Source: Anaeromyxobacter diazotrophicus (GTDB lineage: Bacteria > Myxococcota > Myxococcia > Myxococcales > Anaeromyxobacteraceae). Taken from it: 64,000 nt of DNA. The notes below the pieces were generated by a model. That model was given only the letters and a program-made list of their open reading frames with translations. It had not been told where the DNA came from and did not search any database. How positions within the stretch are numbered: position 1 is the stretch's first letter; each line of letters begins with the position of its first letter. Made by a program: the position numbers and the translations under genes. Below are positions 6,844 through 33,410 of this stretch, piece after piece. The DNA lies in assembly GCF_013340205.1 (NCBI RefSeq), contig NZ_BJTG01000007.1, positions 248,001 through 312,000 on the forward strand. The letters are read 5' to 3'.

Positions 6844-7105
6844 GACCTTCTCCTTCAGGGTGGACGGCGGCGCGAGCCGTACGGAGACGCCGCCGGCGCG
6901 AGGGCATACCCCCGACGGGCTACCGGGGACAAGGGTCACCCGATCAGGTGATTGGGACACCTCGGGTCGGCGCGAACCCGCCGTCCCCGCGTGTCAAAGG
7001 CGCTACCCGCAAGGCGGGCCGAGCGGCACGGCCTTTGCGCAGGGGGCTCCCCGTCGCGCGACGGGAGCGCGACGAGCGGGCCGGCTCGGGCCCGAGGAGG
7101 ACCGC

Positions 7106-9235
7106 GTGATCAGGGGATGGTTGGCGACGTGGAGGCTTGGGCCGAAGATCGCGGCGTCCTTCGCGATCGCGATCGCGATCACGCTCGGGATCGGGCTCGC
7201 CTCGTACCTGTCCGCGCGCAGCATCGCGGCGCACCTGGCCGAGGTGGCCGGCGTGAGCTTCGCGGGCGCGCAGGCGCTCGGCGCGGTCGACGCCGCCCAC
7301 ATGACGGCGGACCGCGCCCTCGGGCGGCTCCTCCTGCCGCGCGCCGATCCCGAGCTCCGCAAGGCGGCGCGGGCCGAGCTCGAGGCGTCGCACCAGCGGC
7401 TCGACGAGGCCTGGAAGACCTTCGGGGAGCTGCCGCGCGACGCGGACCTCGAGGCCGAATGGCACCGCGCCGCGGCCCCGTGGGACGGCTGGCGCGTGAG
7501 CGCGCGCGCCCTGCTCGCCCGCATCGACGAGCACGATCGCGCCATCCTCGACCGCGGGCAGGACAGCCCGGAGGAGATCGCGACCGACCGCGCCGTGTGG
7601 CAGGCCTTCGCCGAGCTGCGGAAGGCCGACGAGGCGGCCTCGGCCGCGCTGGGCGCGCTGCTCCAGAACGAGCAGAAGGACGTGCAGGCGAGCCGCGACG
7701 CGGGCGAGCGCGCCGCCGCGGTCGGCATGCTGGTCATCGGGCTCTCGGTGCTCGCCGGCGCGGCGCTCTCGATCGCGCTCGCGGCGCTGCTCGCGCGGAG
7801 CATCGGCCGCACCGTCGCGACCCTCACCGGCGAGGCGCGCAAGGTCACCGGCGCCGTCGCGGCGGGGCGCCTCGACGAGCGCGGCACCCCCGAGGCGGTG
7901 GACGCCGAGTTCCGCGGCATCGTGGAGGGCATGAACGGGGCGGTGGACGCGACCGTGCGCGCCTACCGCGGGGCGAGCGCGTTCCTCCGCGCCTACGCCG
8001 CCGGCGAGCTCCCGGCGGTGGGCGCGGAGCAGCTCGCCGGGGAGTACGAGGCGCAGCGGCAGGACCTGCTGCGCCTCAAGGCGCAGACCGAGCGCCGCAA
8101 CGCCGAGATCGAGCGCCTGCTGGCGGCCGCCACGCGCGGCGAGCTGGCGGTGCGCGCCGACGCCGCGGGCGAGGCCGGGTTCAACCGGCGCCTGGTCGAG
8201 GGCATCAACGCGCTCCTCGACTCCATCCTCGGCCCGGTCAGCGCCGCGACCGAGGCGCTGGAGCAGCTCGCCGCGCGCGACCTGCGGGCCAGGGTCCACG
8301 GCGACTACCGGGGCGACCACGCCCGGCTGGTCGGCTCGCTCAACGCGATGTCCGACGCGCTGGAGCGCGCGATGCAGGAGGTGTCCGCCTCGGCCGGCGA
8401 GGTCTCGTCCGCCTCGGCGCAGATCGCCTCCTCCAGCCAGGCGGTGGCGTCGGGCGCGAGCGAGCAGGCCGCGAGCATCGAGGAGACCACCGCCTCGGTG
8501 GAGTCGGTGGCGGGGATGGCCCGGCGGTCCGCCGAGGCCGCCGCGCGCGCCAGCCAGCTCGCCGAGGGGGCGCGCGGGGCTGCCAGCGAGGGCGCCGGCG
8601 CCATCGGCGAGATGCAGCGGGTGATGGAGAACGTGCGCCGCGCGGCGGAGGGCACCTCCGCCATCATCAAGGACATCAACGAGATCGCGTTCCAGACGAA
8701 CCTCCTCGCGCTCAACGCGGCCGTCGAGGCGGCGCGCGCCGGCGAGGCGGGCCGCGGCTTCGCGGTGGTCGCCGAGGAGGTGCGCTCGCTGGCGCTCCGC
8801 TCCAAGGAGGCCGCCAACAAGACCGAGGCGCTCATCCGCGAGTCGGTGAAGCAGGCCGGCGCCGGGGAGCTCACCTCGCGGCAGGTGGCGGAGAAGCTCG
8901 CGGCCATCGTGCAGGGGGTGGGGCAGGTCTCCGGGCTCGTGGGCGAGATCGCGGTCGGCGCCCGCGAGCAGGCCGGCGCCATCGACCAGGTGACCCGCGC
9001 CATCGCCGACATGGACAAGGTCACCCAGCAGAACGCCGCCAGCGCCGAGGAGTCCTCCTCGGCGGTGAACGACCTGTCCGGGCGCGCGCAGCAGCTCGCC
9101 GCCACCGTCGCCTCCTTCCGCGTCGGCGAGACGCCCGGCGAGTCCGCCCGGGCGACCCCCGCCGCCGCCGCGCGCCAGCCGTGGGCGCACCCACCGCAGT
9201 CCCGCCGCAGCACCACCCTGGAGAACCACCGATGA
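7106..9235 (+). CDS. Methyl-accepting chemotaxis protein with periplasmic sensor
   Basis: A 709-residue chemoreceptor. A GTG start with a GAGGAGG site just upstream opens the protein. Membrane helix 1 is at about residues 14-36 ([21 protein letters not shown]), followed by a roughly 165-residue helical periplasmic domain resembling a four-helix bundle, and helix 2 at about 205-228. HAMP and further HAMP-like linkers follow to about residue 430. The signalling hairpin tip is [20 protein letters not shown] (about residue 526). The next gene, a solute-binding protein, starts inside this gene's stop codon (ATGA), suggesting the receptor reads ligand delivered by that protein. No CheR-docking pentapeptide is present at the C-terminus. 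Confidence 0.93.
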
Positions 9236-10185
9236 TCAAGCAGCTCGGCACCGCCCTCTGCCTCCTCGCCTCGCTGGCCGGCCCGGCCCGCGGCGAGGAC
9301 GTCGTGCGGCTCGGCAACCAGAAGTTCGTCATCTACGGCGCCGTCTCGTACATGAAGGAGCTGGCGCCCAAGTACGGCCTCAAGATCGAGGAGCGCATCT
9401 ACGACAAGGGCATCGACATGATCCCGGCGCTCAACGCGGGCGAGCTCGATCTCGCCGCCAGCGCCGCCGACGCCGCGGTGGTGGCCCGCGCGGGCGGCGC
9501 CAAGACGTTCGTGGTCGCCGGCTTCGCCAAGGGCAGCGCCCGCCTCCTCGCCCGCGCCGACCTGCCGCTCAAGAAGATCGCCGACCTCAAGGGCAAGAAG
9601 GTGGGCGTGGCGCGCGGCGGCGCGGTCGAGCTGCTCCTCGCCGCCGAGCTGGCGAAGCACGGCATGACTTGGTCCGACAAGCCCGGCCGCGACGTGACCG
9701 TCGTCTACATGCCCTACGGCGAGCTCAACGCCGGCCTCGAGGCGAAGAAGGTCGACGCCGTCATGCAGTCCGAGCCGTACGCGTCGCAGGCCATCCACAA
9801 GGGGTTCGGCAAGGAGATGCTGAAGCCCTACGACACCGAGCTCGGCGAGCCGGTGCGCGTCCTCGTCATGACCGAGGCGATGTACCAGACGAAGCCCGAG
9901 GTCGCGCTGCGCGTCATGAAGTGCTTCGTCGAGGCCACGCGCGCCTTCAAGAAGGACCGGAAGCTGGCGGAGCGGTTCATCCGCGAGGACCTGTTCAAGG
10001 GCCAGCTCACCGCGGAGGGCTTCCGCGACGCGATGGAGAACGCGGAGTTCACCTACGAGGTGTCGCCCCGCCACGTGCAGGTCACGACCGACCTCATGCT
10101 GAAGTACGGCATCGGCCGGATGGTGACGCCGCCGGCCGCCACCGAGTGGGTGAAGCTCGACCTGCTGGAGAAGGCGAAGGGGTAG
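9232..10185 (+). CDS. Periplasmic substrate-binding protein (NrtA/SsuA/TauA-like)
   Basis: A 317-residue solute-binding protein of the nitrate/sulfonate/taurine type (NMT1-like fold). The signal peptide is [21 protein letters not shown]. Family-like elements are [20 protein letters not shown], then [18 protein letters not shown] and the later [10 protein letters not shown]. No ABC permease or ATPase gene is adjacent. Instead it overlaps the stop of a chemoreceptor gene by ATGA, so it is probably a ligand-presenting partner of that receptor rather than part of an importer. An alternative is that it serves a transporter encoded elsewhere. Confidence 0.85.
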
Positions 10186-10210
10186 CGCCGCTCGGACCAC
10201 CGAGCCGTCC

Positions 10211-10243
10211 GGGGCCGGACTCCGCCGCGCGGAGCCCGGCCCC
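10211..10243. terminator. Bidirectional hairpin between convergent genes
   Basis: A 14-bp stem with one mismatch (arms 10211-10224 and 10230-10243, 5-nt loop) lies between the stops of the binding-protein gene and the convergent gene at 10261. No U-run follows on either side, so it may act with Rho or only block exonucleases. Confidence 0.5.
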
Positions 10244-10260
10244 GCTCGTCTCGGCCGCCG

Positions 10261-10758
10261 TCACCGCCGGCGCTGCGCGCGCTGCTGCTCCCAGACCGGC
10301 CGGTAGTCGTAGGTGGGGTAGAACTCGGTGCGGAAGGCGCCCCAGGCGCCGTTCTCGACGGCGAGGTTCACCTCGCGCAGCTTGTCCGGCGGGACGCGCA
10401 GCGTCACCACCTGGCCGATCCCCATCATCACGTACCAGGAGACCACCTCCACCCCGGGCGGGGGAAACCGCTCGTGGAAGCCGCTCCGGTCGAGCTGCGC
10501 GTTGATCTCCGGCAGCGGCTTCGACTGATCGTGACGGAGGAAGATGGTGAGGAGGATGGCGTTCTGCGGCCCGCTGGCGGCGCCGGCCGCGGGGGAGGCC
10601 GAGGGCGGGACGAGCGGCACCGCCTGGGGAGCGCGCGCGGGCGCGGGCGCCGGCGGGGAGCCCTGGGCGAAGGCCGGGGAGGCCGCCAGGGCGAGCCCGG
10701 CGGCGGCGAGGAGGGGCGCCGCGGCGGCGCGGCGTACGGCGGCGGGGTAGGTCGGCAT
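10261..10758 (-). CDS. Secreted protein of unknown function
   Basis: A 165-residue protein with an N-terminal signal peptide (AAAPLLAAAGLALAASPAFA, cleaved after about residue 31). A proline/alanine-rich linker of ~35 residues follows, then a conserved-looking ~90-residue domain: NAILLTIFLRHDQSKPLPEI, FHERFPPPGVEVVSWYVMMG and VVTLRVPPDKLREVNLAVE, ending in an Arg-rich tail. The compact alpha/beta pattern could be a small ferredoxin-like fold, but no family is recognised. It diverges from the pheA gene, with 79 bp between the two starts. Confidence 0.7.
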   Translation of the reverse strand: MPTYPAAVRRAAAAPLLAAAGLALAASPAFAQGSPPAPAPARAPQAVPLVPPSASPAAGAASGPQNAILLTIFLRHDQSKPLPEINAQLDRSGFHERFPPPGVEVVSWYVMMGIGQVVTLRVPPDKLREVNLAVENGAWGAFRTEFYPTYDYRPVWEQQRAQRRR

Positions 10759-20410: not shown

Positions 20411-21193
20411 ATGCTCGCCATCGAGACGCGCGGGCTCACCCGGCTCTTCGACGGCAAGCCCGCCGTGCAGGAGCTGGCCCTGGCGGTGCCGGCCGGCGCG
20501 TTCTACGGCTTCCTGGGCCCGAACGGCGCCGGGAAGAGCACCACCATGCGGCTGCTCACCGGGCTGCTCGCGCCGACCTCGGGCGAGGCGCGCGTGCTCG
20601 GGCTCGACGTGGCCGCGAGCCCGCTGGCGGTGAAGGCGCAGCTCGGGGTGGTCCCGGACGGCCTGTCCCTGTTCGAGCGGCTCACCGGCGAGGAGCAGCT
20701 GCGCATCCACGGGCAGCTCTACGGCCTCCCCCGCCGCGAGGCCGCGCGCCGCGCCGCCGAGCTGCTCGAGGCGCTGGAGCTGGCGGGCGACGCCGGCAAG
20801 GTGGTGCAGGCCTACAGCCACGGCATGAAGAAGAAGCTCGCCCTCGGCTGCGCGCTCATCCACGGCCCGCGGCTGCTCTTCCTCGACGAGCCGTTCGAGG
20901 GCATCGACGCGGTGGCGGTGAGCGGCATCCGGCGGCTGCTGCAGGACCTGGTCAGCCGGCGCGCGCTCACCATCTTCCTCACCAGCCACGTCCTCGAGGT
21001 GGTGGAGCGCCTCGTCACGCACGTCGGGATCATCCACCGGGGGCGGCTGGTGGTGCAGGGGACGCTGGAGGAGGTCCGCGCGACCGGCACCCTCGAGGAG
21101 ACGTTCATCCGCGCCGTCGGCGAGGCGCGGCCGGCGCCCCCGCCGCTCTCCTGGCTGGCCGGGCCGGGCGGGGCAGGGGACGGCGGGGCGTGA
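20411..21193 (+). CDS. ABC transporter ATP-binding protein
   Basis: A 260-residue ATPase of the ABC-2/exporter class. Walker A is GPNGAGKST (about residues 36-44), the signature is the variant YSHGMKKKLALG, Walker B is LLFLDEPFEGID and the switch histidine is in LTSHVLEVVE. The order and variant signature match ATPases of multidrug or polymer ABC-2 exporters. The next gene, a large permease, starts within the stop codon (GTGA), so the pair forms one transporter. The substrate is unknown. Confidence 0.92.
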   Translation: MLAIETRGLTRLFDGKPAVQELALAVPAGAFYGFLGPNGAGKSTTMRLLTGLLAPTSGEARVLGLDVAASPLAVKAQLGVVPDGLSLFERLTGEEQLRIHGQLYGLPRREAARRAAELLEALELAGDAGKVVQAYSHGMKKKLALGCALIHGPRLLFLDEPFEGIDAVAVSGIRRLLQDLVSRRALTIFLTSHVLEVVERLVTHVGIIHRGRLVVQGTLEEVRATGTLEETFIRAVGEARPAPPPLSWLAGPGGAGDGGA

Positions 21194-25169: not shown

Positions 25170-25727
25170 ATGACGACTGAGCGAGGGCGGCGCGCCGAGG
25201 GCGTGGGCCGCGAGGAGGAGGCTCTGCGCGAGCGCCTGGCCGGCCTGGAGCAGCAGGTCGTGGAGCTCGGCAACGCCTGCGTGGTCATGGAGCGCGTCCA
25301 CGGCGCGCTCGACCGCGGCGCGGTGTTGCTCGCCATCCAGGACGTCGTCATCAACGTGATCGGCTCGGAGGAGCTCGCGATCTTCGAGGTCGCGGACGGT
25401 GGCCGGCTGCTCCGCCCCGTGCAGAGCTTCGGCGTCGAGCCGCGCGAGCTGGCGGTGGGAGCTGGCCCGGTCGGGCGCGCTGCCTCGGAGCGGAGGGCGT
25501 GGACGATCCTCGACGGCGCGCCGCCCGAGGAGGAGCCCCGGCTGACCGCCGTCGCGCCGCTCAGCGCCGGCCCGCACCTGACGGGCGTGGTCGCGATCTG
25601 GCGGATGCTCGCGCACAAGCCGGTCTTCGGCGAGGCGGACCGCGCGGTGCTCGAGCTCCTCTCACGCCACGGCGGCGCCGCCCTGCACCTCACCTCGCCG
25701 CACGCCGGCCGCCGCGCGGCGGCCTGA
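25170..25727 (+). CDS. GAF-domain protein of the chemosensory operon
   Basis: A 185-residue cytosolic protein. The first ~45 residues form a likely coiled coil (EEEALRERLAGLEQQVVELG), and the rest resembles a GAF domain: LLAIQDVVINVIGSEELAIF, VGRAASERRAWTILDG and LTAVAPLSAGPHLTGVVAIW. GAF domains bind small molecules or mediate dimerisation. It lies 10 bp after the receiver gene and 14 bp before cheA, so it is probably a component or modulator of this signalling array. Its ligand is unknown and no cofactor cysteine is evident. Confidence 0.75.
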   Translation: MTTERGRRAEGVGREEEALRERLAGLEQQVVELGNACVVMERVHGALDRGAVLLAIQDVVINVIGSEELAIFEVADGGRLLRPVQSFGVEPRELAVGAGPVGRAASERRAWTILDGAPPEEEPRLTAVAPLSAGPHLTGVVAIWRMLAHKPVFGEADRAVLELLSRHGGAALHLTSPHAGRRAAA

Positions 25728-25741
25728 GGCCGGAGCCCCGC

Positions 25742-27406
25742 ATGGACCAGCAGATCGACCCGGGGGACGAGATCGAGATCGACCGCGAGGTGCTCGTCCA
25801 GGCCTTCGTGACCGAGGCGGGCGAGGTCCTCGCCCAGATGGAGCAGCTCGCGCTGGCGCTGGAGAGCCGGCCGGAGGACGACGAGACCATCCACTCGCTG
25901 TTCCGCGCGGCGCACACGCTCAAGGGCTCGGGCTCGCTGGTCGGGTTCGACGCCGTCCGGGAGCTGGCGCACGCCACCGAGGACCTGCTCGACAAGGTGC
26001 GCTCCCGCGCGCTGCGCGTGAGCGACGGGCTGGTGAGCCTGCTCCTGCGGTCGGTCGACCTGCTCCGCGTCGCCGTCGCGGAGGGCGCCGCGGGCAGGAC
26101 CGCCGCCTCGCCCGAGACGACCTCGCTGGGTGAGCGGCTCCGCCGAGCCTCGGGAGGCGAGGGCGCCGAGTCCGGGCTGGCCCCCGCCGAGGCGGGCACC
26201 GCCGCGGGCGCCGGCGCGGCGGCCGCCCGCCCGCCGCGCACCCTGCGGGTCGAGGTCGGCAAGCTCGACCGCATGATCGACCTCTCCGGCGAGATCGCCA
26301 TCTCGCGCGGCCGGCTGGCGGACATGCTGGAGCGGCGCCGCACGCTCTCGATCGAGGAGATCCTCGAGGCGCATCGCGAGGCCGACCGCCTCTACCTGGA
26401 CCTGCAGGACCTCATCATGCAGGCGCGGATGGTGCCGCTCGGCCCCACGTTCCAGCAGCACTTCCGGACCGTGCGCGACCTCGCGACGGCTCAGGGCAAG
26501 CAGGTCCGGCTGACGCTGGAGGGCGAGGACGTGGAGGTCGACACGGCCGTCGTCGAGCACATCCGCGACCCGCTCGTCCACATGGTCCGCAACGCGGTCG
26601 ATCACGGCATCGAGGCGCCCGCCGATCGGACCGCGCGCGGCAAGGATCCCTGCGGGCGACTCACGCTCCGGGCCTTTCACGAGGGGGCGCTCGTCGTGGT
26701 GCAGCTGGCGGACGACGGCGCCGGCCTCGACCGCGACCGGATCGTCCGGCGCGCGGTGGAGCGGGGCCTGGTGACCGCGGGCGCCGCGCTCACGGACCAG
26801 GAGGTCTACGGGCTCATCTTCGAGCCGGGCTTCAGCACGCGCGACGAGGTCACCGAGGTCTCCGGCCGCGGGGTCGGCATGGACGTCGTGCGCCGGAACG
26901 TCGACGCGCTGCGCGGCTCCGTGTCCGTGGACAGCGTGGCGGGCCAGGGCACCACCGTCACGCTGCGCTTCCCGCTCACGCTCGCCATCATCCAGGGCTT
27001 CCGCGTGGTGGTCGGAGGGGACGTCTACATCCTGCCGCTGGATGCGGTCGCCGAGTGCGTCGAGCTCCCGGCGGGCGCCGATGGAGGGCGTACCGGCGTG
27101 CTGAACCTGCGCGGGCGGCCCCTGCCCTACCTCCGTCTCCGCCGCTACTTCGAGCTCGCCGGGGAGCCACCCGCCCGCGAGAACGTGGTGGTGGTCGAGC
27201 ACGAGGGAGCGGCCGTGGGGCTCGCCGTCGACGCGCTGCTCGGCGAGAGCCAGACGGTGATCAAGCCGCTCGGCCGGATGCTCCAGGGCGTGCGCGGCGT
27301 CTCGGGCTCGGCGGTGCTGGGGGACGGCCGCGTCGCGCTCATCCTCGACATCCCCGGGCTGCTCCGGGACGCGCTCGGCCGGGGGCATGGAGCGCTGCTC
27401 AGCTGA
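25742..27406 (+). CDS. cheA: Chemotaxis histidine kinase CheA (no P2 domain)
   Basis: A 554-residue CheA. P1 carries the phosphorylated His58 in RAAHTLKGSGSLVGF. A ~45-residue Ala/Gly-rich linker replaces the P2 response-regulator docking domain. P3 dimerisation starts near residue 160 (LRVEVGKLDRMIDLSGEIAI). P4 has N box HMVRNAVDHGIE, G1 DDGAGLD and G2 GRGVGMDVVRRNV. P5, CheW-like, spans about 420-554 (FRVVVGGDVYILPLDAVAEC). Its neighbours supply receptor, coupling protein, methyltransferase and methylesterase, so the pathway is complete. Confidence 0.95.
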   Translation: MDQQIDPGDEIEIDREVLVQAFVTEAGEVLAQMEQLALALESRPEDDETIHSLFRAAHTLKGSGSLVGFDAVRELAHATEDLLDKVRSRALRVSDGLVSLLLRSVDLLRVAVAEGAAGRTAASPETTSLGERLRRASGGEGAESGLAPAEAGTAAGAGAAAARPPRTLRVEVGKLDRMIDLSGEIAISRGRLADMLERRRTLSIEEILEAHREADRLYLDLQDLIMQARMVPLGPTFQQHFRTVRDLATAQGKQVRLTLEGEDVEVDTAVVEHIRDPLVHMVRNAVDHGIEAPADRTARGKDPCGRLTLRAFHEGALVVVQLADDGAGLDRDRIVRRAVERGLVTAGAALTDQEVYGLIFEPGFSTRDEVTEVSGRGVGMDVVRRNVDALRGSVSVDSVAGQGTTVTLRFPLTLAIIQGFRVVVGGDVYILPLDAVAECVELPAGADGGRTGVLNLRGRPLPYLRLRRYFELAGEPPARENVVVVEHEGAAVGLAVDALLGESQTVIKPLGRMLQGVRGVSGSAVLGDGRVALILDIPGLLRDALGRGHGALLS

Positions 27407-27466
27407 CGAGATCGCAAGGACCGGCCCGCCTCGGCGCGGGCCCATCACGACGGAGAGGGTCGACAC

Positions 27467-29164
27467 ATGAACGGGTTCCGCAACATGGGCGTGAGGGCGC
27501 GGCTGCTGGTGGCGTTCGGGGCGGTGATGCTGCTCACCGGCGGGCTGGGTGCCTTCGCCGTGGTGCAGCTCTCGAAGGTGAACGCCGCGACCGAGGACAT
27601 CGCCACGAACTGGCTCCCGAGCATCAAGTACCTCGGCCAGATCGACGACCGCATCAACACCATCCGGCGCTACGAGCTCGGGCACGTGCTCGCCACCGAT
27701 CCGGCGGTCTTCGACCGGTACGAGCAGAAGATCGAGTCGCTCGGGCGCGAGCTCGCCGAGGCGGAGAAGGCGTACGAGCCGCTCCTCTCGTCGGCCGAGG
27801 AGAAGGCGGCGTACCGGACCTTCCGCGACGAGTGGGACCACTATCTGACCGAGCAGCGCCAGGTGCTCGCGCTCTCGCACGCCGGCAAGCAGGTGGAGGC
27901 GCGCAACCTGACGAGCTCGACCTCGCTCAAGCTCCACAACGACGCCATCGCCACGCTCGCTGGCCTCATCGCCCAGAACGTGGCCGGGGCGCAGCGCGCC
28001 CACGAGGCGGCGGCGGAGGCTTACCGGGTCTCGCGCCTCTGGGTGATCGGGATCATCGCGGCGGCCGTGGCGCTGAGCGTGTTCATCGCCGTGGCCATCT
28101 CCGGGGCGCTCGTGCGCCAGCTCGGAGGCGAGCCCGACTATGCCGCGGGGATCGCGAAGAAGGTGGCGGAGGGCGACCTCACCGTCCGCGTGGCGCTCCG
28201 GCCGGGGGACGAGAGCAGCCTGCTGCACGCCATGAAGGGCATGGTGGAGAAGCTCACCGAGATCATCGCCGAGGTGCGCGGCGGCGCGGCGGCCCTCTCT
28301 TCCGCCGCCGAGCAGGTCTCGTCCACCTCCCAGAGCGTGTCCCAGGGCACGAGCGAGCAGGCGGCCTCGGTCGAGGAGACCACCTCGTCGCTGGAGCAGA
28401 TGAGCGCCTCGATCACCCAGAACGCCGAGAACAGCCGCCAGACCGAGCAGATGGCGGTGGCGGGGGCGAAGAACGCCGAGGAGAGCGGCAAGGCGGTGGG
28501 CGAGACGGTGACGGCCATGAAGGAGATCGCCGAGAAGATCTCGATCATCGAGGAGATCGCCTACCAGACGAACCTGCTCGCGCTCAACGCGGCCATCGAG
28601 GCCGCCCGGGCCGGAGAGCACGGCAAGGGCTTCGCCGTCGTGGCCACCGAGGTCCGCAAGCTGGCGGAGCGGAGCCAGAAGGCGGCCGGCGAGATCGGCG
28701 GCCTCGCCAGCCAGTCGGTCAAGGTGGCGGAGCGGTCCGGGCAGCTGCTGCTCGAGCTCGTGCCGGCCATCAAGAAGACCGCGGACCTGGTGCAGGAGGT
28801 GGCCGCCGCCAGCCAGGAGCAGTCGACCGGCGTCGCCCAGATCAACAAGGCCATGGCGAACGTCGACCAGGTCACGCAGCGCAACGCCTCCGCTTCGGAG
28901 GAGCTCGCCTCGACCGCGGAGGAGATGAATGCCCAGGCGGAGTCGCTCCAGCAGCTCATGGGCTTCTTCCGCGTGGACGGCGCCGAGGCGCAGGCGGAGC
29001 GGGCCGCCCCGCGGGCCGCGGCCCGCGCCGCCGCGCGCCCGGCGCTCGCGCTGCAGCCGGCGGCGGCCGCCGCCGACCCCGGCCTTCACCCCGCCGCGCT
29101 CCGCAACGGCAAGGCGAACGGCGTGAACGGCGCGCACCCCGACCGAGAGTACAAGCGGTTCTAG
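27467..29164 (+). CDS. Methyl-accepting chemotaxis protein with CheR-docking tail
   Basis: A 565-residue receptor. Membrane helix 1 spans about 12-35 and helix 2 about 190-212, enclosing a ~155-residue helical periplasmic sensor of four-helix-bundle type ([20 protein letters not shown]). HAMP follows ([20 protein letters not shown]), and the hairpin tip is [20 protein letters not shown] (about residue 365). A flexible Ala-rich tail of about 60 residues ends in EYKRF, which fits the x-aromatic-x-x-aromatic pattern of the pentapeptide that tethers CheR. It lies between cheA and cheW in the operon and is probably its dedicated receptor. Confidence 0.93.
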
Positions 29165-29172
29165 GAGGGGAC

Positions 29173-29730
29173 ATGAGCGCCAGCGACGCCACCCAGCGCA
29201 ACCAGTACCTCTCCTTCACGCTCGCCGGGAGCGACTACGCGGTCGGCATCCTCCAGGTACGGGAGATCCTGCAGTACGAAACCGTCACGCGCGTGCCCTC
29301 CGTGCCTCCCTCGATCCGCGGCGTCATCAACCTCCGCGGCGCGGTGGTCCCCGTCCTGGATCTCGCGCTCAAGTTCGGGCTGGAGGCGACGCCGGTGACC
29401 AAGCGCACCTGCGTCCTCATCGTCGACGCGTCGGTAGGGGGCGAGTCGACCGTCGTCGGCGTCATGGCGGACGCCGTGCGCGAGGTGCTCGAGCTGGGCG
29501 GCGACGAGGTCGAGCCCCCGCCCTCCTTCGGGACCCAGGTCCGCGTCGACTACCTCGTCGGCATGGGCAAGGCGGGCAAGGGCTTCGTGCTCCTCCTCGA
29601 CCTCGACCGCGTCATCTCCGCCGGAGAGCGGGAGCTGGCGGCGCAGCTCGGCGGCGAGGGCGGCGCGCCCGCCGGGGCGCTCGCCGCGGGCGGCTCGGCG
29701 CCGGCCGCGGGGGAGGCCCTCGTGCCATGA
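29173..29730 (+). CDS. cheW: Chemotaxis coupling protein CheW
   Basis: A 185-residue scaffold linking receptors to CheA. The CheW core runs from about residue 11 to 155: [40 protein letters not shown] and [20 protein letters not shown] are the diagnostic stretches. The last ~25 residues are an Ala/Gly-rich tail absent from classical CheW. The ATG follows TAGGAGGGG, a strong ribosome site that includes the stop of the receptor gene. The stop codon overlaps the cheR start (ATGA). Confidence 0.94.
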
Positions 29731-30632
29731 GGCGCGAGGAGGCCGGAGCGGCCGCGCCGACGCTGGCGCCCGAGCGCGCCATCGCGGCCCGCGACTTCGC
29801 CAAGTTCCAGGCGCTCATCCACCGGGAGGCCGGGATCTGGCTCGCCCCCGAGAAGCAGATGCTGCTCGTCGGCCGCCTGGGGCGCAGGGTGAGGGAGCTC
29901 GGCCTCGGGTCGTTCGACGCCTACTACCAGCGCGTCGAGGCCGACCCGGACGAGCGGGTCCGGATGCTCGACCACATCACCACCAACGAGACGCACTTCT
30001 TCCGCGAGCCGCGACACTTCGAGCTCCTGGAGGAGCAGGTGTTCCCCCGTTGGATCGCCGAGGCCGCCCGCGGAGCCAGGCCGCGGCGGGCCAGGGTCTG
30101 GAGCGCCGCCTGCTCCACCGGCGAGGAGCCGTACTCGCTCGCGATGGCGCTCCTGCGCGCGTTTCCGCCCGGCTCGGGGTGGGAGCTCGAGATCCTCGCC
30201 ACCGATCTCTCGACGCGCGTCCTCGAGCGCGCCCGCGCCGCGGTGTGGCCGCTCGAGAAGTCGCGCGAGATCCCGGTCGACCACCTCAAGGCTTACATGT
30301 GGAAGGGCACCGGCACGCAGGAGGGGCTCATGAAGGCGGGCCCCGAGCTGCGCGCGCTGGTGCGCTTCGCGCGCCTCAACCTGGTCGACGAGGTCGACGC
30401 GTCCACCGGCCGATTCGATCTGATCTTCTGCCGCAACGTGCTCATCTACTTCGACGCGCCGACCAAGCAGCGCGTCGTCGCGCGGCTGCTCCGGCACCTC
30501 GCGACCGATGGCCAGCTGTTCCTCGGGCACGCCGAGAGCCTGTCCGGGATGGGGCTCCCGGTCCGGAGCGAGGTGCCGACCGTGTACAGCCACGCCGCCC
30601 GGGGCGACGCGGGCGCGCGGAGCTCGCCGTGA
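29727..30632 (+). CDS. cheR: Chemotaxis protein methyltransferase CheR
   Basis: Methylates receptor glutamates using S-adenosylmethionine. It has 301 residues: an N-terminal helical domain (about 20-95) with [20 protein letters not shown], and a SAM-binding domain with [17 protein letters not shown] and [14 protein letters not shown]. No TPR extension is present. It overlaps cheW (ATGA) and cheB (TGATG) at its two ends. The receptor encoded two genes upstream ends in a putative CheR-docking pentapeptide, which would bring the enzyme to the array. Confidence 0.95.
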
Positions 30633-31714
30633 TGACCTCCCCTTCGCGTCCGGCCTCCCCGGCCCCGCCGCGCGTCCTGGTGGTGGACGACTCGGCCGTC
30701 GTCCGGCAGGTCCTGACCGCGATCCTGTCCAGCGCCGGGATGCAGGTCGAGGTGGCGGGCGATCCGCTCATCGCCATGGAGCGCATGGCCCGGCAGCGCC
30801 CCGACGCCGTGGTCCTCGACATCGAGATGCCGCGCATGGACGGCCTCACCTTCCTGCGGCGCCTCATGAGCGCGGACGAGCCGGTCCCGGCGCTCATCTG
30901 CTCGAGCCTGGCTGGGCCCGGAACCGAGGTGGCGCTGCAGGCGCTCGACGAGGGCGCGGTGGGGATCGTCGAGAAGCCGCGCCTCGGGGTGAAGGGGTTC
31001 CTGCAGGACTCCGCGCGCCAGCTCATCGAGGCGGTGCGGGGTGCCCTGCACGCCCGCGTGCGGACGCGCGCCGCGCGCCCGGAGCCGCGGCACGACGCCG
31101 GCGCTGTGCTGCCGCCGCCGGCGAAGGCCGTAAGGCTCGCCACCACGACGAGCAAGGTCGTGGCGGTCGGTGCGTCCACCGGGGGCACCGAGGCGCTCCG
31201 CGAGCTGCTCATGGCCCTGCCTCCCGACGCCCCCGGGATCGCCATCGTCCAGCACATGCCGGAGGCGTTCACCGGGCCGTTCGCCCGGCGGCTCCACGGG
31301 CTGTGTCGCATCGAGGTGAAGGAGGCGCAGCAGGGGGACCGCCTCTGCTCCGGCCGCGCGCTCGTCGCGCCGGGCAATCACCACCTGGCGGTCCGCCGGA
31401 GCGGGGCGCACTACTTCGCCGAGGTGCTCGAGGGGCCGCCGGTCTCGCGACATCGCCCGAGCGTGGACGTCCTCTTCCGCTCCACCGCACAGGCGGCGGG
31501 CGCGAACGCCGTGGGGGTCATCCTCACCGGCATGGGCGACGACGGCGCGCAGGGACTCCTCGAGCTGCGCCAGGCGGGCGCCCACACCATCGCGCAGGAC
31601 GAGGCGACGTCAGTCGTGTTCGGGATGCCGCGGATGGCGATCGAGGCGGGCGCCGCCAGCGAGGTGCTGCCGCTTCCCGCCATCGCGGCGGCGATGTTGA
31701 GGAGAGCGTCGTGA
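30632..31714 (+). CDS. cheB: Chemotaxis methylesterase/deamidase CheB
   Basis: Removes methyl groups from receptors after activation by phosphorylation. It has 360 residues. The receiver domain (about 13-135) carries [13 protein letters not shown] and the phospho-Asp in [13 protein letters not shown] ~30-residue linker leads to the esterase domain with the catalytic Ser in [11 protein letters not shown], His in VQHMPEAFT and Asp in MGDDGAQG. The start overlaps the cheR stop. The receiver contains [20 protein letters not shown], close to the usual CheB form. Confidence 0.95.
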
Positions 31715-31736
31715 AAGCACACCGAGGAGGAGCCCC

Positions 31737-33410
31737 ATGTTCGCGCGCCTGAGCGGCTGGAGCATCTCCGCCCGCCTGCGGCTCACCTGCGCGCTCGCGA
31801 GCGGCGCCATCGCTGGCGCCGGGTTCCTGGCGTGGCGCGCGCTGCGCGACACCGGGGCGCCGGGCGCGAGCGCGATCGGGCTCGGGCTCGCCGGGGTCGC
31901 CCTCGCGGTCGCCCTGGCGCAGGGGTGCGTCGTGCACCGCAGCTTCGCCCGCGAGCTGCGGGGCACGGCGCGGGAGATGGAGGCGCTGCGGCAGGCGACC
32001 CTCGAGGGCCGGGTGGACGCCCGTTGCGACGCGAGCCGCACCGCGCCGGAGCTGCGGCCGGTGTTCGAGGCCGTCAACGAGACGCTCGACGCCTTCGTGG
32101 CGCCGATCCTGGTCGCGGCGGAGTGCGTCGAGCGGATCGCGCGCGGCGACATCCCCGGCGAGCTCACCGAGCCGTACCGCGGCGAGTTCGAGCAGCTCCG
32201 GCTGAACCTCAACCGCTGCATCGCCGCAGTCCACGCGCTCGTGGAGGACACCGACGTCCTGGGACGCGCCGCGGTGGCCGGCCGGCTCGACACGCGGGCC
32301 GAGGTGGCGAGGCACCACGGCGACTTCCGCCGCATCCTCGACGGCGTGAACCAGGCGCTGGAGGCGTTCGCGGCCCCCGTCACCGAGGCGGCGGGGGTAC
32401 TCGAGCGCCTCGCCGCGCGCGACCTGCGAGCGCGCATCGACGGTGAGTACCAGGGCGACCACGCCAAGATGAAGCATGCCGTCAACGAGACGGCGCGGGC
32501 GCTGCACGACTCCCTGGCCCAGGTGGCGCGCTCGGTGGAGGAGGTGTCCGGGGGGGCCGCCCGCATCGCCTCGTCCTCCCAGGCGGTCGCGGACGGCGCG
32601 GCGCAGCAGGCCCAGGCGCTCGAGGCGAGCACCGCCAGGCTCGACGAGGTGGCGGGCATGACGCGGGCCTCCGCGGACAGCGCTCACGAGGCGACGGTCG
32701 CGGTGGAGCGGGCGCGCCGCGCCGCGGGGGAGGGGGGCGAGGCCACGCAGCAGATGACCGGCGCGATGGCCCGCATCAAGGCGGCCGCCGAGGGCACCTC
32801 GCAGATCATCCGGGAGGTGAACGAGATCGCGTTCCAGACGAACCTGCTCGCGCTCAACGCAGCGGTCGAGGCGGCCCGGGCCGGCGAGGCCGGCCGCAGC
32901 TTCGCCGTGGTGGCCGAGGAGGTGAGGTCGCTCGCCCTGCGCTCCAAGCAGGCCGCCGCGCGCACGGAGTCGCTCATCGCGGAGTCGGTGCGGGAGGCGG
33001 CGCAGGGCGAGCTCACCAGCCGGCGCGTCGACGAGCAACTCCAGGACATCGCCGGGGCGGTCGAGGCCGTCACCGCGCACGTCGCCGACATCGCCGCGCG
33101 AGCGCGCCAGCAGGCGACCGGCATCGAGGAGGTGCACCGCTCGGTGGCGCAGGTGGGCGACGTCACGCAGCGGACCGCTGCGCTCTCGGGGGAATCCTCC
33201 TCGATCGCCGCGGAGCTGTCGGGCAAGGCTCAGGAGCTGTCGGCCATGGTCGGCACGTTCGCGCTCGCCGAGGCCGCCCCCGCCCTGCGACCCGCGGGGT
33301 CGCGTCAGCGCGCGCCCGCGCCGCCGGCGACCGCCGGCAGCTCCGACTGCTCCACGGCGAGCATCGCCTCCACGAGCGGCGCCAGGGCGGCGTCCTCGAG
33401 CCCGGGGTAG
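31737..33410 (+). CDS. Methyl-accepting chemotaxis protein with minimal outer loop
   Basis: A 557-residue receptor. Two membrane helices (about 12-33 and 44-64) are separated by only ~10 residues, so it has no periplasmic sensor domain. A long stretch with at least two HAMP-like repeats (for example [20 protein letters not shown] and [20 protein letters not shown]) leads to the signalling hairpin tip [20 protein letters not shown] (about residue 363). The last ~45 residues are low-complexity and lie antisense to a convergent gene, so the original stop may have been lost. It probably senses membrane or cytosolic state, or relays signals from partners, and is the last gene of the che operon. 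Confidence 0.9.

Follow-up and report, generated by a model that had tools for sequence, protein, structure and literature searches.

In the archaeon Halobacterium salinarum, the BasB/BasT and CosB/CosT pairs each consist of a periplasmic binding protein and a transducer, and their interaction has been demonstrated. Kokoeva in 2002 is said to have placed the genes of each pair side by side and outside importers. BasB and CosB belong to binding-protein families other than the one treated below. As given in excerpts of PMC3579733, BasB, CosB and the putative OE2170R and OE2196F co-purified as a group with the transducers Htr3 (BasT), Htr5 (CosT), Htr6 and Htr18 or Htr2. The same make-up was found in Anaeromyxobacter diazotrophicus, in a stretch of 64,000 nucleotides (hereafter the window) in which a chemoreceptor gene runs directly into a solute-binding protein (SBP) gene. 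BasB/BasT and CosB/CosT are the nearest working precedent for the window pair, in which contact between the two proteins is a prediction.

Most known cases of indirect sensing in bacterial chemotaxis involve binding proteins owned by importers. The LuxP/LuxQ and TorT/TorS genes are adjacent, and these systems resemble the window pair in joining a receptor to a dedicated binding protein encoded next door; their output, however, is a kinase, whereas that of the window pair is a methyl-accepting chemotaxis protein (MCP). Both are given as complexes in the available part of PMC6321045. Escherichia coli Tar and Tsr with the sugar, dipeptide and AI-2 binding proteins, and PstS-CtpL of Pseudomonas aeruginosa, likewise sense indirectly (PMC9602780 and PMC6321045, both in extract). 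Tar and Tsr share a four-helix fold with the window receptor in the fold search, whereas the binding proteins of all these systems belong to importers and that of the window has no importer gene near it. The extract of PMC9602780 describes SBP activation of receptors as a general, widespread mechanism that draws on at least 13 SBP families, and according to the accessible text of PMC11113362, gene linkage to the SBP holds for 10 of the 11 SBP-activated kinases characterised. The kind of system is already known; what is new here is the variety of partners within one genome and the presence of a matched importer paralogue. A literature search, with subscription journals largely outside it, recognised no description of such pairs in Anaeromyxobacter-like bacteria.

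The chemoreceptor gene and the overlapping binding-protein gene

The chemoreceptor gene occupies window positions 7106-9235 on the forward strand, with a GTG start at 7106 and a TGA stop at 9233-9235, and encodes 709 amino acids; an RBS-like AGGAGG lies at 7095-7100, 5 bases upstream of the GTG. Pfam detected an MCP signalling domain (MCPsignal, PF00015; residues 483-640, 8552-9025; E 2.9e-40, 138.4 bits against a curated cut-off of 34.6), two stretches of HAMP_2 (the best at residues 359-420, 8180-8365; E 4e-20, 72 bits against 24.3) and a four-helix-bundle sensory region (4HB_MCP_1; residues 11-140, 7136-7525; E 4.9e-7, 29.9 bits against 27), all passing their cut-offs. With a signalling domain, a HAMP linker and a periplasmic sensory domain, the product has the domain make-up of an MCP.

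A single-sequence model of the sensory domain was all helix at moderate confidence (pLDDT 75.4, pTM 0.54), with the bundle extending to about residue 205. In the fold search nothing reached E 0.001, and the top solved match was 4k0d, the periplasmic domain of kinase Adeh_2942 (E 1.8e-3 / 2.3e-3; TM by target up to 0.82); Vc1313, Tsr, PcaY_PP and MCP2201 came lower in the list, mixed with unrelated helical proteins. A PDB sequence search with the N-terminal 265 residues returned nothing. The nearest relative found of the sensory domain, at 38% identity, lies in region L115 of genome G001, and no binding-protein gene adjoins it. This region (contig C112, 8444-14637) holds two divergent MCP genes near ABC genes that by eye resemble a metal importer. 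Within the A. diazotrophicus genome, the receptor of locus L126 and the unpaired receptor of L120 were also related to the window sensory domain, although neither has a four-helix-bundle Pfam match.

The binding-protein gene (9232-10185, forward strand, 317 amino acids) begins inside the receptor's stop codon, its ATG at 9232-9234 forming an ATGA overlap at 9232-9235, and an RBS-like GGAG lies at 9220-9223 within the receptor's last codons. The overlap and this site agree with the translational coupling proposed by the first-pass annotation. Its wording "genetically fused" needs correction, as these are two reading frames overlapping by 4 bases. Upstream of the pair lies a divergent M20-type peptidase gene and downstream a convergent ORF lacking a Pfam match; a promoter and terminator scan of 6850-10350, poorly informative at this G+C, returned none. 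Elsewhere in the window, a chemosensory cluster at 25499-33410 comprises CheA, MCP, CheW, CheR and one more MCP, the CheA, CheW and CheR genes lying at 25.5-30.6 kb.

The binding protein has an N-terminus that by eye looks like a signal peptide, and it matched NMT1_2 (residues 38-243, 9343-9960; E 3.3e-19, 70.1 bits against a cut-off of 24.7) and NMT1 (E 3.2e-13, 50.5 bits against 20.5), passing both cut-offs. Its model was confident (pLDDT 90.6) and had SsuA, TauA, NrtA and CmpA as fold neighbours, with Z about 29-30 to SsuA 3ksx and 2x26, NrtA 2g29 and TauA 6ssy, at an identity of only 16-23% in these fold alignments. Profile scores and modelled fold together place it among NMT1-like proteins of the SsuA fold, in line with the NrtA/TauA type named earlier. 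Unlike SsuA, TauA and NrtA themselves, it scored below the curated NCBIfam SsuA cut-off (TIGR01728; 128.4 against 163.5 bits) and has no adjoining permease or ATPase gene.

Four-helix bundles such as Tsr and PcaY_PP, which appear among the fold neighbours here, bind ligands directly, and the window receptor might do the same while the binding protein serves another receptor or sensor. We regard this as very improbable, since nothing in the translational overlap points to a partner encoded far away. Most likely, the binding protein is used for indirect sensing.

Orphan status, importer relatives and divergence

The genome (4.83 Mb, 17 contigs, the window lying on contig C7) contains 20 matches to the permease domain BPD_transp_1, none of them on C7. 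When the window was compared with the ATPase of related importers, the sole match, at 20417-21136, was 30% identical and 10 kb away; thus, the earlier observation that no permease or ATPase gene is nearby was confirmed. The binding-protein gene lacks the permease and ATPase genes that stand alongside an ABC-importer subunit, and the pair has the gene order of a BasB/BasT-like unit, namely, adjacent genes and no importer genes. Three PF13379 genes were found in the genome. The first is the window copy, the second (C1:638302) lies beside a permease match (C1:637688), and the third, in locus L064 on contig C3, is a paralogue 62% identical to the window binding protein and stands in a cluster of a TrpB-like enzyme, SBP, permease and ATPase.

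Relatives were sampled in 60 genomes including A. diazotrophicus itself (E 1e-10) and in a search of 195 genomes of the phylum (E 1e-30). Among the 60, 21 genomes matched the binding protein (its own and 20 others), and the phylum search gave the same 21; four weak SBP matches (25-30% identity, L027-L030) were left out of the counts. A scan of named genomes yielded 423 relatives, of which the nearest 80 were used in counts, and three plasmid loci were added, a plasmid hit (H4) being left out. A homologous permease adjoins the SBP in 21 of 22 related loci, a set that counts in the paralogue of L064 (the exception is L082), in 79 of the nearest 80 of the 423 named relatives and in 3 of 3 plasmid loci; the remaining named locus, L145, has no homologous permease and has a 35%-identical ATPase match nearby. 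In total, 103 of 105 relatives (22 related, the nearest 80 of 423 named and 3 plasmid) stand beside a permease, so the window copy is a departure. The window binding protein is derived, as its sequence relatives indicate, from an ABC-transporter family. The first-pass annotation had counted as evidence against the pair any relatives in which the binding protein is parted from the receptor and joined to an ABC operon. This holds for the family, yet the pair stands, because the genome has both the ABC-linked copy of L064 and the receptor-linked copy.

The varied genes beside these importers indicate no single ligand. A TrpB-like gene was present in 14 of the 22 related loci within the fetched stretches, not always adjacent, and downstream of the importer two gene clusters were present, one in 45 and the other in 43 of the nearest 80 of the 423 named relatives. 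One member of each cluster was identified, a dCache (Cache-type) histidine kinase and a sigma-54 response regulator, which may regulate this importer family (L135-L214). A small ORF that by eye resembled a muconate isomerase was matched by no NCBIfam model at E 1e-10. The suggestion that the ligand is an anion or sulfonate tied to respiration is therefore not borne out, the protein falling short of the SsuA cut-off and its importer relatives having TrpB-like or kinase and sigma-54 regulator genes as neighbours.

An MCP gene was adjacent in none of the nearest 80 of the 423 named loci (in L209, one lies about 5.7 kb off), and the phylum search detected the window pair in none of its 194 other genomes, one genus mate among them. 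The conservation of the pair raised in the first-pass annotation was thus not found; the one other receptor-linked family member has a different receptor. This is L082, in the related genome G021, where an SBP gene on the minus strand (10220-9249; 51% identity to the window binding protein) precedes an MCP gene (GTG at 9217) by 31 bases. In the L082 MCP, HAMP and signalling domains were recognised but no sensory domain. A 763-codon open frame had suggested an SBP-MCP fusion there, which was rejected, as the SBP gene stops at 9249 and a separate MCP gene begins at 9217. Because the L082 receptor is another one and the gene order is reversed, with the SBP first, the window pair and L082 are most simply viewed as two independent couplings, although the tree does not discriminate here.

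In a maximum-likelihood tree of 106 proteins, the longest end branches were those of L082 (1.78) and the window copy (0.93), against 0.41 for the next and a median of 0.038; the window copy had no firm place in this tree. Conservation was judged on the 71 columns in which at least 99% of 104 transporter-family copies (21 from related loci, 80 from named genomes and 3 from plasmids) agree. The window copy departs from 10 of these columns and L082 from 16, compared with a maximum of 3 and a median of 0 in a leave-one-out control over the 104 copies. Six departures (sites 33, 34, 153, 164, 168 and 250) are common to both (overlap P 0.007). A33 and H34, invariant in the 104 copies, are V and I in the window copy and V and Q in L082; one of the two patterns used to scan for relatives spans sites 31-38, but V and I are permitted there. 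In the binding-protein model, sites 33 and 34 open helix 33-48 right after strand 23-30, which in the SsuA-type fold we take to face the ligand cleft. Any one of three causes, namely, an altered pocket, freedom from the constraints of a transporter and plain relaxation, would explain the divergence, and relaxed constraint alone could account for part of it.

A binding protein could also serve the receptor and the C3 importer at once, as maltose-binding protein serves Tar and its importer, and both the window copy's 62% identity to the C3 paralogue and the presence of the importer genes in the genome (L064) fit such dual use. We consider it unlikely, given that the importer has its own binding protein beside the permease and that the window copy breaks the transporter-conserved columns listed above. 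The pairing with a receptor, one of several such pairs in the genome, suggests that the window binding protein, kin to a subunit of an importer still encoded here, now functions in sensing rather than uptake.

Other receptor/binding-protein pairs

The genome has 30 MCPsignal matches, and receptor neighbours were checked at 29 of them (28 by script and L225 by hand, leaving out L226). A same-strand binding-protein gene adjoins 8 of the 30 receptor genes (29 neighbourhoods examined), two cases being weak or damaged, so the window pair is not the singular arrangement that it had been taken for. In L129 (contig C9, 7296-10387), an MCP gene overlaps by ATGA (offset -4) with a gene for an NMT1/THI5-like binding protein of the NMT1 family. 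Peripla_BP_6 partners occur in L119 (offset +21) and, upstream by about 40 bases, in L127 (contig C1, 8231-11663), where an apparent frameshift, either a broken gene or an assembly error, separates the sensory and signalling parts of the MCP. A PstS-like PBP_like_2 gene lies upstream in L121 (at 75), and a short one in L225 (at 7), the latter below cut-off (22.8 and 24.3 bits against 27). L225 (contig C16, 6661-9891) holds the short PstS-like protein, the MCP and an ORF that by eye is porin-like and overlaps the MCP stop. Free-standing sCache_2 proteins are the partners in L126 (8466-11035; offset -4, ATGA overlap; no haem motif CxxCH in the locus) and L132 (7117-9814; upstream by about 70). 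Secretion of the paired binding proteins was judged by eye from their N-termini. A rough Poisson estimate from 27 binding-protein genes, with gene number and strand factor assumed and a tally made partly after the fact, gave about 0.3 pairs by chance against 8 seen.

The genome contains four sCache_2 matches. Two are free-standing and both belong to receptor pairs (L126 and L132), and the remaining two lie inside the receptors L128 and L219, which have no such partner. According to the available portion of PMC12889525, fusion to a signalling module is the state of more than 90% of the Cache family, which makes free-standing sCache partners unusual. Two further receptor loci had other neighbours: in L123 (contig C2, 8360-12138), an OprB-type porin gene starts within the stop of the MCP gene, and in L122 (contig C1, 4166-11685), an MCP gene is flanked on one side by a nickel hydrogenase large-subunit gene and on the other by an ORF that by eye resembles a hydrogenase maturation protease.

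Pairing did not follow the presence of a four-helix bundle. Pfam was run on 21 of the 30 receptors, the L127 N-terminus lying outside the frame scanned, and at a limit of E 0.01, 4HB_MCP_1 or TarH was matched in 13 of the 21, in several of them with a score under the curated cut-off. Four of these 13 are paired (the window receptor and L129 above the cut-off, L119 and L121 below), as are three of the eight lacking a bundle match (L126, L127 and L132), indicating that pairing is not tied to the four-helix bundle; a common bundle rule was accordingly discarded. The nine bundle receptors without a partner indicate that the bundle alone calls for none.

Some pair types recur in other genera, whereas the window pair does not. 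The PstS-like pair was tracked in 60 genomes, giving 31 matches, 30 of them as loci with 1.5-kb flanks and one without a locus. A downstream same-strand MCP match was present at 6 of the 30 loci, in five genomes (L239 in A. diazotrophicus, L240 in G003, L244 in G010, L243 and L266 in G048 and L258 in G044); in L243, L266 and L258, the MCP match starts 0.7-1.2 kb away, and intervening genes were not called. No MCP match lay within the 1.5-kb flanks of L241 and L242, whose PstS-like proteins are 54-57% identical. A Peripla_BP_6/MCP pair was also found in G003 (L232, offset -4) and a free-standing, secreted-looking sCache_2 beside an MCP in G019 (L237, offset +82). The NMT1 pair of L129 had no match outside its own genome among 31 searched.

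These comparisons bear on whether the window pair is a relic or accident, a duplicated binding-protein gene that came to lie behind a receptor and has no sensing role. The long branch of the window copy and the occurrence of the pair in one genome of the 195 searched would fit this, and adjacency is no proof of interaction or function; a study of sensor kinases and SBPs (PMC11113362) found no interaction between neighbours. Such an origin is nevertheless quite unlikely, considering the intact frame and confident fold, the exact ATGA overlap with its RBS-like site, the seven more pairs in the genome and the second receptor-linked family member in L082.

Proposed sensing route and its implications

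The window pair is thus probably a dedicated indirect-sensing unit, in which a paralogue of an importer's binding subunit has given up transport and is now produced along with a chemoreceptor. In the periplasm, the binding protein, presumably secreted, would capture a small ligand, perhaps another one than the importer takes up. Once loaded, it would dock on the receptor's periplasmic four-helix bundle, and the docked receptor would signal through its HAMP domains to CheA and alter CheA activity. Against this reading count the lack of conservation of the pair in the phylum genomes searched, the closest receptor relative found, which stands without a binding protein, and the nine unpaired bundle receptors of the genome.

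A wider reading, which we offer tentatively and hold to be possible but doubtful, is that the receptors of this lineage, several of them with four-helix bundles, form a modular array and dock co-made binding proteins that have no part in transport, come from unrelated families (NMT1_2, NMT1, Peripla_BP_6, PstS-like and free-standing sCache) and give the receptors their specificity, new senses arising when an importer's binding protein is copied beside a receptor. The window pair and, with another receptor, L082 appear to exemplify such copying. The finding that receptors with a bundle match are paired no more often than the rest (4 of 13 and 3 of 8) lowers the odds of this reading. One genome carries up to eight receptor/binding-protein pairs drawn from several families, one of which has a matched control in the importer paralogue. 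Together, the eight pairs and this paralogue make it testable how an importer subunit turns into a dedicated sensor and how receptors may recognise partners of very different fold.
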